From contig NZ_JASISQ010000005.1 of the NCBI RefSeq assembly GCF_030063205.1, forward strand, positions 62,001-126,000: a stretch of 64,000 nucleotides of DNA, written 5' to 3'. The notes under the pieces are model-generated. The model was not told the origin of the DNA. It did no database searches and saw only the letters and a list, made by a program, of their open reading frames with translations. Position 1 is the stretch's first letter. The number at the start of each line of letters is the position of its first letter. Below are positions 21,588-22,932 of this stretch, one piece after another. Made by a program: the position numbers and the translations under genes. This stretch comes from Arthrobacter antibioticus (GTDB lineage: Bacteria; Actinomycetota; Actinomycetes; Actinomycetales; Micrococcaceae).

Positions 21588-21617
21588 TTGTTGACCGAAT
21601 AAATTCGGGAGTATGGT
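21588..21617 (+). promoter_or_regulatory. Candidate promoter for the leader peptide and DAHP synthase
   Basis: A TATGGT -10-like hexamer lies at 21612-21617, with TTGTTG at 21588-21593 (18-nt spacer) or TTGACC at 21591-21596 (15-nt spacer) as possible -35 elements. The predicted transcription start falls at or next to the ATG at 21624, which would make the leader peptide leaderless, a common arrangement in actinobacteria. Confidence 0.5.
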
Positions 21618-21623
21618 GTGTGC

Positions 21624-21683
21624 ATGACAAACCGTTGGTATGCGTATTTTTCGTTGGCTCTGGAGGGGCCTGCGTCTAACTGA
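21624..21683 (+). CDS. Candidate 19-residue aromatic leader peptide (attenuator)
   Basis: The frame MTNRWYAYFSLALEGPASN, ending in TGA, lies 121 nt before the DAHP synthase start. Residues 5-9 are Trp-Tyr-Ala-Tyr-Phe, so all three aromatic amino acids made by the pathway are read in five consecutive codons. Two stem-loops follow. A comparable aromatic-rich leader controlling a DAHP synthase gene by ribosome-mediated attenuation is known in Corynebacterium glutamicum. There is no ribosome-binding site, but a -10-like element 7 nt upstream suggests leaderless translation. Confidence 0.72.
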   Translation: MTNRWYAYFSLALEGPASN

Positions 21684-21711
21684 CACGCATCCAATCACCT
21701 TCAGAGCCAAC
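21653..21711 (+). promoter_or_regulatory. Attenuator stem A overlapping leader codons
   Basis: GTTGGCTCTG at 21653-21662, inside leader codons 10-13, is perfectly complementary to CAGAGCCAAC at 21702-21711. A ribosome stalled on the Trp/Tyr/Phe codons (21636-21650) would cover the left arm. The CTCTG/CAGAG core of this stem also occurs in the next stem, so alternative pairings are possible. Confidence 0.6.
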
Positions 21712-21712
21712 A

Positions 21713-21736
21713 GGACAGAGAAATCTTTCTCTGTCC
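21713..21736 (+). terminator. Attenuator stem B, terminator-like hairpin
   Basis: GGACAGAGAAA (21713-21723) and its exact complement (21726-21736) form an 11-bp stem with a two-base TC between the arms, followed by TTCGCTATTTTC. It starts one base after stem A and ends 68 nt before the DAHP synthase ATG. Its arms contain the same CAGAG/CTCTG core as stem A. Confidence 0.6.
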
Positions 21737-21804
21737 TTCGCTATTTTCAAGCGGGTTCCGAAGTGGGGGCTCGCTGCCAGCTCCCACCAAAGGAAATTCT
21801 TTCC

Positions 21805-22932
21805 ATGAGCCTTACAGCAGCCAAAAAAATCCCGGCCACGCCGCACACCACAGCCAACCTGCGTGTCAGCCAATTCACCGCGTTGGTGTCTCCTGCGGAG
21901 TTGGCCGCTAAGCTACCGATCGACGACTACGCCAGCACCGTCGTCGAACGCGGCCGTGATCAGGTTCGGGCCATCATGAACGGGCTCGATGACAGACTGC
22001 TGGTGGTGGTTGGTCCTTGCTCAATTCACGACACCGAAGCCGGGCTGGAATACGCTCGCCGGCTCGCCGAAGTGGCTACGGAGCATCAAGCGGACCTGTT
22101 GATAGTGATGCGTGCGTACTTTGAGAAGCCCCGAACCACTGTGGGCTGGAAGGGGCTGATCAACGATCCAGGACTTGATGGCAGCCACGATGTGGCCAGG
22201 GGACTTGAGCTGGCGCGTAGTTTCTTGCTGGAGGTTGCCCGACTGGGCGTGCCTACCGGCACCGAATTCCTTGAACCGATCAGCCCGCAGTACACGGCAG
22301 ATCTTATCTCCTGGGGCGCCATAGGGGCCAGGACTGCCGAAAGTCAGATTCACCGCCAACTCTCTTCGGGGCTGTCCATGCCGGTGGGTTTCAAGAACGG
22401 GACCGACGGCGGACTTCAAGTGGCCCTTGACGCGTGCAACGCCGCGTTGGCTGCCCAGTCGTTCTTAGGGATCGACGCCGATGGCCGGGCCGCCCTTGTC
22501 AGCACCTCCGGGAACTTGGATGCGCACATCATCCTGCGTGGTGGGCGCGACGCACCGAATTACCGAAGCGCTGACGTCGCCCAGGCCACGGCGGCTGCGA
22601 CAACGGCTGGAGTCAATCCACGCCTGATCATTGATGCCAGTCACGCAAATTCTGGGAAAAGTCACCACCGTCAGGCCCAGGTTGCGTTGGAAATTGGTGC
22701 CCAGCTGGAAGCGGGTGACGCCTCGGCGCACACCATTGCCGGGGTCATGTTGGAGAGCTTTCTTGTAGGCGGAGCCCAGAACCTCAACGTGGAGCAGATT
22801 GCCGCCGGCGGTTCAGAGCTGGTCTACGGGCAGAGCGTCACGGACGCCTGCATGGACTGGGAAGTAACGGCAGAGGTGCTGGCAAAGTTGGCTTACGCCT
22901 CCAGTGCACGCCGTACAGAGAAGAGGGGCTAG
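21805..22932 (+). CDS. Class I 3-deoxy-7-phosphoheptulonate (DAHP) synthase
   Basis: Condenses phosphoenolpyruvate and erythrose 4-phosphate in the first step of aromatic amino acid synthesis. The 375-residue protein is the class I alpha type (AroF/AroG/AroH-like), not the plant-like class II type also found in actinobacteria. Conserved blocks are VVGPCSIHD, MRAYFEKPRTTVGWKGLIND, GARTAESQIHR, GFKNGTDG, ILRGGRDAPNY and DASHANSGK, with the metal ligands expected in these motifs. The ATG at 21805 has AAGGAAA 9-10 nt upstream; the longer frame from 21640 reads through the attenuator. Expression is probably controlled by the leader at 21624. Confidence 0.95.
   Translation: MSLTAAKKIPATPHTTANLRVSQFTALVSPAELAAKLPIDDYASTVVERGRDQVRAIMNGLDDRLLVVVGPCSIHDTEAGLEYARRLAEVATEHQADLLIVMRAYFEKPRTTVGWKGLINDPGLDGSHDVARGLELARSFLLEVARLGVPTGTEFLEPISPQYTADLISWGAIGARTAESQIHRQLSSGLSMPVGFKNGTDGGLQVALDACNAALAAQSFLGIDADGRAALVSTSGNLDAHIILRGGRDAPNYRSADVAQATAAATTAGVNPRLIIDASHANSGKSHHRQAQVALEIGAQLEAGDASAHTIAGVMLESFLVGGAQNLNVEQIAAGGSELVYGQSVTDACMDWEVTAEVLAKLAYASSARRTEKRG

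Follow-up and report, generated by a model that had tools for sequence, protein, structure and literature searches.

An aromatic leader peptide with alternative RNA pairings before the class I DAHP synthase gene of Arthrobacter antibioticus and its actinobacterial relatives

Results

The locus and its parts

The window, that is the whole stretch of 64,000 nucleotides of Arthrobacter antibioticus DNA analyzed here, carries on its plus strand a class I DAHP synthase gene of the aroF type. The class assignment comes from a TIGR00034 score of 464 bits and a PF00793 match of the encoded protein. The gene's ATG at 21805 is preceded, across a gap of 121 nt, by a short leader ORF whose residues 5–9 are Trp5-Tyr6-Ala7-Tyr8-Phe9 (Table 1). 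The leader ORF, the two stems behind it, the -10 hexamer and the 121-nt gap were all marked in an initial annotation of this DNA and were all found in place.

The first stem had been drawn as 21653-21662/21702-21711. It is longer, with 14 pairs between 21653-21666 and 21698-21711, and is called stem A here with b and b' as its arms. The second one, 21713-21723/21726-21736, is confirmed as the core of hairpin B (21712-21737). Segment a covers the codons for Arg-Trp-Tyr-Ala plus one more base, the first of Tyr8, and the GGCTC of segment b begins 8 nt past the first base of the Phe9 codon. The ribosome-binding site of the DAHP synthase gene was assigned by match to what we take to be the consensus.

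The region 21618-21810 folds with a z score of -5.7, and none of 200 shuffles folds as well. No Rfam family reaches its gathering score in the window, and nothing in Rfam appears at E ≤ 1 for the window's element and six relatives. A second frame starting from ATG 21640 is open into the DAHP synthase gene (21640-22932, 430 aa). This frame is closed in several relatives, so a gene call from 21640 would be an over-extension.

Table 1. Mapped parts of the leader region and the DAHP synthase gene, in window coordinates
Feature	Position	Strand	Remarks
-10 hexamer TATGGT	21612..21617	+	6 nt before the leader ATG; transcript putatively leaderless
Leader ORF MTNRWYAYFSLALEGPASN	21624..21683	+	19 codons, ATG 21624 to TGA 21683
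Leader codons	Trp5 21636-21638; Tyr6 21639-21641; Tyr8 21645-21647; Phe9 21648-21650	+	
Segment a GTTGGTATGCGT	21634..21645	+	pairs with a'
Segment b	21653..21666	+	stem A 5' arm; +8 spacing; b:b' helix
Segment a'	21685..21695	+	directly after the leader stop codon; pairs with a
Segment b'	21698..21711	+	stem A 3' arm; alternatively pairs with d
Hairpin B	21712..21737	+	terminator-like; followed by TCGCTATTTT, a poor U-tract in the window
Small hairpin C1	21739..21753	+	21739-21742 with 21750-21753; helix in the covariation analysis
Hairpin D	21751..21774	+	21751-21759 with 21766-21774; covariation; excludes b':d
Segment d GGTTCCGAA	21754..21762	+	competes with b for b'; 8 of 9 positions paired in the window
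Local hairpin	21763..21787	+	21763-21771 with 21779-21787; adjoins the ribosome-binding site upstream; folding
Ribosome-binding site AAAGGAAA	21789..21796	+	of the DAHP synthase gene; sequence match
Class I DAHP synthase gene (aroF type)	21805..22932	+	TIGR00034, PF00793

Distribution of the enzyme and the element

The class I enzyme is encoded in 23 of 23 genomes searched of the window's genus, the window's own included. Among 104 loci read, which include relatives from the best 80 of at least 578, the WYAYF leader pattern occurs in 46, one of which reads WQAYF. A covariance model of the element was built from the 42 distinct leaders of these 46.

The family, phylum and Corynebacterium genus searches that follow are samples from larger groups. 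In the family sample, the model search, run with stricter filters, found the element in 102 of 245 genomes and in 15 of 31 genera. A protein search (E ≤ 1e-60) found the enzyme in 102 of the same 245, and the two lists of genomes, compared by eye, are identical.

The window's genome has a single copy of the element, and the model search gave besides it two weak minus-strand echoes of the same palindromes. The same genome also encodes a class II DAHP synthase. A scan of either strand over stretches of up to 1500 nt ahead of that match showed no aromatic ORF.

In the phylum sample, 23 of 216 genomes encode the enzyme. An aromatic leader precedes it in all six from the window's class, the window included, and was found in 2 of the 17 enzyme genomes outside the class, in a scan that covered no more than 190 nt before the gene in L208 and 130 nt in L214. 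In the genus of Corynebacterium amycolatum, 20 of 81 sampled genomes encode the enzyme, and 17 of these 20 loci have an RFYF leader. L235 and L236 have no TTY-TAY-TTY run within 700 nt, and no leader was found there.

The short aromatic frame that the initial annotation expected in related genomes is thus present, both as RFYF in Corynebacterium and as the Arthrobacter type in 88 distinct leaders from 96 leader loci. L141 (WQAYF) and L192 (WYANF) match the covariance model as well and stand outside the 88, since the ORF filter missed them.

Some records deserve mention for their names or identities. L025 (Arthrobacter psychrochitiniphilus) and G008, of the window's genus, have the same 165 nt from the leader start. 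The locus in L026, a record titled Sporosarcina beigongshangi, is identical over 165 nt to that of L010 from the window's genus and lies on an equally long contig, and the record name looks wrong. The L039 record is titled Avipropionibacterium.

Promoter position and leader codons

A TAnnnT hexamer ends 6 nt (55 sequences) or 7 nt (31) before the leader ATG in 86 of the 88 distinct relatives. This supports a transcript start at or beside the ATG; the initial annotation had placed it at the ATG. At such a distance, the leader transcript is probably leaderless and would be translated without a ribosome-binding site. Leaderless mRNAs are common in Corynebacterium glutamicum, where they amount to 33% of mRNAs according to the accessible part of PMC3890552.

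In the Arthrobacter-type leaders, W, Y, A and Y are nearly invariant, with Trp5 in 88 of 88 and Tyr6 in 87 of 88. Their Tyr codons are TAT in 174 of 175 and their Phe codon is TTT in 86 of 88. In the downstream DAHP synthase genes, counted at 42 of the loci, TAT accounts for 1 of 212 and TTT for 7 of 292. Seventeen more distant loci from Mycobacteriales and a Streptosporangiaceae MAG, hereafter called the Mycobacteriales set, have TTT in 17 of 17 and TAT in 16 of 17. Compared with the usage in the genes, rare codons are thus kept where stalling would be read, and RNA pairing may contribute to their retention.

The initial annotation regarded Trp as an addition to the Corynebacterium leader. 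Trp is no novelty there, as its codon occurs also in 9 of the 17 Corynebacterium RFYF leaders and in 16 of the 17 leaders of the Mycobacteriales set. Natural variants lack Tyr6 (L035 and L141), Tyr8 (L192) or Trp (L064), and all four retain the Phe codon. L192 and L141 have thereby lost one Tyr codon each and kept Trp and Phe. Single-base indels shift the leader frame of L011 and L184 just past the aromatic codons, with the RNA otherwise conserved, and could be assembly errors.

Spacing between the last Phe codon and stem A

In 85 of the 88 Arthrobacter-type leaders, GGCUC starts 8 nt past the point where the last Phe codon begins; the exceptions are L011 and L184 with their shifted frame, and L039. 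The +8 motif is also present in 19 of 30 more distant loci. The Mycobacteriales set consists of 17 of these 19, chosen for the motif and folded, with L045 and L067 excluded (b':d p above 0.6). It includes L048, though its leader frame runs without a stop for 126 nt past the Phe codon.

In the 17 Corynebacterium RFYF leaders, the last Phe codon stands at +8 to GGCUY in 15 and at +9 in 2, the +8 values of L224, L226, L230 and L232 having been read by eye. Corynebacterium L237 has a leader with Tyr-Tyr and no Phe, and its second Tyr occupies the +8 slot as judged by eye. The anatomy of a last Phe codon 8 nt before GGCUC, a b:b' stem and then hairpin B recurs in Mycobacterium, Dietzia and Corynebacterium. 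This common spacing and stem anatomy bears out the kinship with the Corynebacterium leader that had been proposed at the outset.

Covariation of stem A and the hairpins

Stem A is paired in 99.3% of cells of the 42-sequence alignment. It has two doubly changed pairs, a count matched by 6 of 500 shuffles, and its count of pair types is matched by 181 of 500. As the stem is nearly invariant, its covariation is modest. For the whole structure of b:b', B, C1 and D, 20 of 39 pairs change on both sides, which none of 500 shuffles matched and for which slid controls gave 8 to 12, in a 90-row model alignment (88 distinct) that was fitted to that structure.

Hairpin D changes on both sides in 7 of 7 pairs and is paired in 89.3% of cells, and it is absent from the minimum-energy folds of the window's own sequence. 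Hairpin B is present and covarying.

The U-tract behind hairpin B is poor in the window and in most Arthrobacter-type leaders, as 75 of 88 have at most 3 T in the following 8 nt by an automatic rule that misplaces some ends. Hairpin B is U-tailed in the Corynebacterium leaders, and U-tracts are found in mycobacteria and some family members. Its stem is changed in L157-L160 and L170 and in L161-L169, and a better U-tract follows it in L157-L160 and L170. From these clade differences, terminator strength seems to differ among genera. Inspection by eye for a conserved competitor of the 5' arm of hairpin B gave none, the matches being weak or clade-limited.

Alternative pairings a:a' and b':d

Two other pairings, a:a' and b':d, are mutually exclusive with the structure of stem A and hairpin D. 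In a:a', the codons for Arg-Trp-Tyr-Ala pair with the stretch that follows the leader stop codon. Against 100 shuffles each of the segment after the leader, its p value is at most 0.05 in 75 of 88 sequences and at most 0.2 in all 88, with 0.04 in the window.

In b':d, the 3' arm of stem A pairs with a segment that lies 48 to 59 nt further along, a range given without L041. With d chosen as the best match in a 50-nt search range, it beats scrambled b' at p ≤ 0.05 in 75 of 88. Position by position, 59 to 88 of the 88 sequences pair. Where the second position of b' is C, d has G in 8 of 8 sequences from three genus codes (Fisher p 2e-7); where it is U, d pairs in 65 of 80 and fails in 15.

Among the 19 more distant loci with the +8 motif, b':d reaches p ≤ 0.05 in 10, and it extends to 11 consecutive pairs in two Dietzia. 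Segment d is not evident in Corynebacterium. The segment is shared between b':d and hairpin D, which has no U-tract, so that a terminator role of D is only conjectural.

The conserved alternative partner of the stem A 3' arm is d (21754-21762), not hairpin B. The initial annotation had instead supposed that the two stems re-pair through a common CAGAG/CTCTG core. This supposition fails, because the two cores change independently. The second core turns into CAGGG/CCCTG, CAGGA/TCCTG or others with the first unchanged, and in L039, reversely, the first is changed and the second unchanged.

Ribosome position and RNA fold

In constrained folding, the ribosome was represented by a mask reaching from 16 nt upstream of the A-site start to 12 nt downstream of it. 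The folding covered 86 sequences, the 88 without L011 and L184 with their shifted leader frame. The mask is a crude ribosome stand-in, and its reach decides the result at Tyr8.

The b:b' helix is above 0.5 in 62 of 86 sequences without ribosome, in 83 with the ribosome at Trp5, 83 at Tyr6, 48 at Tyr8, none at Phe9 and 74 at the stop codon. The corresponding numbers for b':d are 24, 2, 2, 27, 78 and 10. The loss of b:b' at Phe9 comes from the mask itself, but the takeover by b':d is not implied by it. In the window's genus without ribosome, b:b' is preferred in 21 of 21.

In the Mycobacteriales set, b:b' is above 0.5 in 0 of 17 with the ribosome at Phe and in 15 of 17 at the stop codon. At Phe, b':d is above 0.5 in 8 of the 17 and not in the other 9. 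The window's own sequence under the Phe9 mask gives 0.27 for b:b' and 0.43 for b':d, weaker than the relatives, so the switch looks softer in the window.

In constrained folding, the ribosome position selects between mutually exclusive helices, as in the classical attenuators. The initial annotation let a ribosome stalled on the aromatic codons reach the first arm of stem A, which holds for Phe9 and partly for Tyr8 and does not hold for the other aromatic codons. Its proposal that all three aromatic amino acids are sensed is not supported by the masked folds, in which stalls at Trp5 or Tyr6 keep b:b' and that at Phe9 leads to b':d.

Discussion

The element is a real, well-conserved attenuator of the aroR type, and new in it are the RWYAYF leader, the b':d and a:a' pairings and the weak tail of hairpin B. 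What the computation itself shows is that the element is conserved, that it has two alternative pairings and that its fold changes with the ribosome position. Ribosome-mediated attenuation with an aromatic leader peptide, the core of the initial annotation, is supported by the conservation, the spacing and the mask-dependent folds. With a probability of about 0.7, we regard the element as an aroR-type ribosome-mediated attenuator of the class I DAHP synthase gene (aroF) with Phe as the main signal.

Mechanistically, transcription would start at the leader ATG, judging from the promoter position, and the leader would be translated without a ribosome-binding site. When Phe is plentiful, the ribosome would reach the stop codon and cover a' and the region behind b. 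Then b would be free to pair with b' into stem A, and this state, with hairpins B and D downstream, is taken as OFF. When Phe-tRNA is short, the ribosome would wait with Phe9, a rare UUU codon, in the A site and cover b. The released b' would pair with d to make a three-way junction around B and C1, and this state is taken as ON. Which state is ON, we infer, and Phe would be the main signal by analogy with C. glutamicum. Since d lies downstream of B, the b':d pairing cannot decide termination at B.

Some findings count against this scheme. It offers no clear role for the a:a' helix and no account of why Trp5 and Tyr6 are retained under Phe-only sensing, and in L237 the +8 slot is filled by Tyr instead of Phe. 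The weak U-tract of hairpin B, the want of a conserved competitor on inspection, the modest covariation of stem A, the softer switch in the window, the 15 of 80 failures of d where b' has U, the 9 of 17 loci of the Mycobacteriales set with b':d not above 0.5 at Phe and a segment d that is not evident in Corynebacterium speak against it as well. Tentatively, and with the odds against it, the leader may read the position of the aromatic codons: only the last Phe codon, UUU at 8 nt before stem A, would flip the RNA, the kept Trp5 and Tyr6 would hold the opposite fold, and in leaders of the Arthrobacter type and many of those from Mycobacteriales the switch would work past hairpin B by way of b':d. 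If so, the gene would stay off when Trp or Tyr is scarce and be turned on when Phe is, and in L237 the amino acid sensed would have changed naturally. A switch acting beyond hairpin B through b':d is, to our knowledge, a layout absent from the textbook attenuators.

The near invariance of W, Y, A and Y would suit a sensor of all aromatic amino acids instead. In such a sensor, a ribosome at Trp5, Tyr6, Tyr8 or Phe9 would cover a, block a:a' and favour b:b', so that b:b' is ON and a:a' together with b':d is OFF. The a:a' complementarity, kept in 75 of 88 at p ≤ 0.05 though a' is non-coding and variable, and the b:b' fold in 83 of 86 for the Trp5 and Tyr6 stalls speak for it too. However, the Phe9 fold is opposite to the Trp5 fold, so one rule cannot serve all the codons, and b:b' is preferred in the window's genus already without ribosome. 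A Tyr signal is moreover denied for C. glutamicum in the accessible part of a review (PMC11802643), and we hold pan-aromatic sensing to be improbable.

Somewhat less probable still is a translational switch, in which refolding is passed on through hairpin D to the ribosome-binding site as d' pairs with either d or that site. The covariation in all seven pairs of hairpin D fits it, and so does the complementarity of d' to the ribosome-binding site seen by eye in several genera. The accessibility of the site at equilibrium is, however, equal in both states, with means of 0.57 vs 0.59 in the window's genus (22 sequences) and 0.45 vs 0.45 in the other 66. Finally, the leader could be no more than an upstream ORF, with hairpins that terminate constitutively and stabilise the RNA, and no amino acid would be sensed. 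Hairpin B is indeed terminator-like in many relatives, but if folding did not depend on translation, it would be hard to see why rare codons, an exact codon-to-stem spacing and alternative pairings are all conserved, and we give this account hardly any weight.

The preferred reading of an attenuator with Phe as the main signal has its closest known counterpart in the aroR leader of aroF in C. glutamicum, reportedly described by Neshat et al. in 2014. That leader is listed with Phe-Tyr-Phe in the accessible part of PMC4046766, and the RFYF of the Corynebacterium relatives fits it. The accessible part of the review PMC11802643 describes aroR control as transcription attenuation, enhanced under Phe limitation, with Tyr availability having no effect, and the Phe-only prediction agrees with this statement. 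In the accessible part of PMC7356990, aroR is called a translational regulatory leader and was replaced.

Like aroR, the element places a short aromatic leader ahead of DAHP synthase. For the finer anatomy the comparison runs through the Corynebacterium relatives, which share the RFYF leader, the distance between the last Phe codon and GGCUY, the b:b' stem and a hairpin B next to it. The Arthrobacter type differs in having RWYAYF and a mostly poor U-tract at hairpin B. It differs also in segment d, which lies downstream of B and can take over b', a feature shared by part of the Mycobacteriales set and not evident in Corynebacterium.

In the enteric trpL leader, the control codons stand just before segment 1, and the pairings are 1:2, 2:3 and 3:4. 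The order of codons, b, b', d and d' here makes an equivalent scheme of b:b', b':d and d:d', where the ribosome sets the fold. Unlike in trpL, the U-tract terminator-like hairpin B is inserted between segments 2 and 3 rather than placed at 3:4, and the transcript of the Arthrobacter-type leader seems to be leaderless.

The accessible parts of PMC1262725 and PMC4046766 describe actinobacterial leader attenuators for ilvB, leuA and trpE. They resemble the present element in the phylum, in leader peptides rich in the regulated amino acid and in preceding biosynthetic genes, but the genes and the amino acids are different ones. The accessible part of PMC1262725 reports that no conserved RNA structures were seen ahead of the phenylalanine and tyrosine operons of Actinobacteria. 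PMC13236596 concerns ilvB1, with aroF, aroG and DAHP unmentioned in its accessible part. Among the titles and abstract starts listed, mostly from outside subscription journals, none dealt with this leader outside Corynebacterium, and the string WYAYF had no match in the literature searched.

DAHP synthase is the entry step to all the aromatic amino acids. The findings carry the aroR case of C. glutamicum, which matters for amino acid production, over to Arthrobacter, Mycobacterium, Dietzia and others. The fixed codon-to-stem spacing across an actinobacterial class provides a comparative handle on the codon read. In addition, the rare UAU and UUU codons of the leader make it testable that slow wobble codons sharpen the sensing.

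One more short frame was noticed outside the DAHP synthase loci. In the genome of L216, the frame VYFFFSPDSRKLYIICKI lies on the minus strand about 143 nt before a PF04715 match and runs into the beginning of the anthranilate synthase gene there. It is either a chance occurrence or a second aromatic leader.
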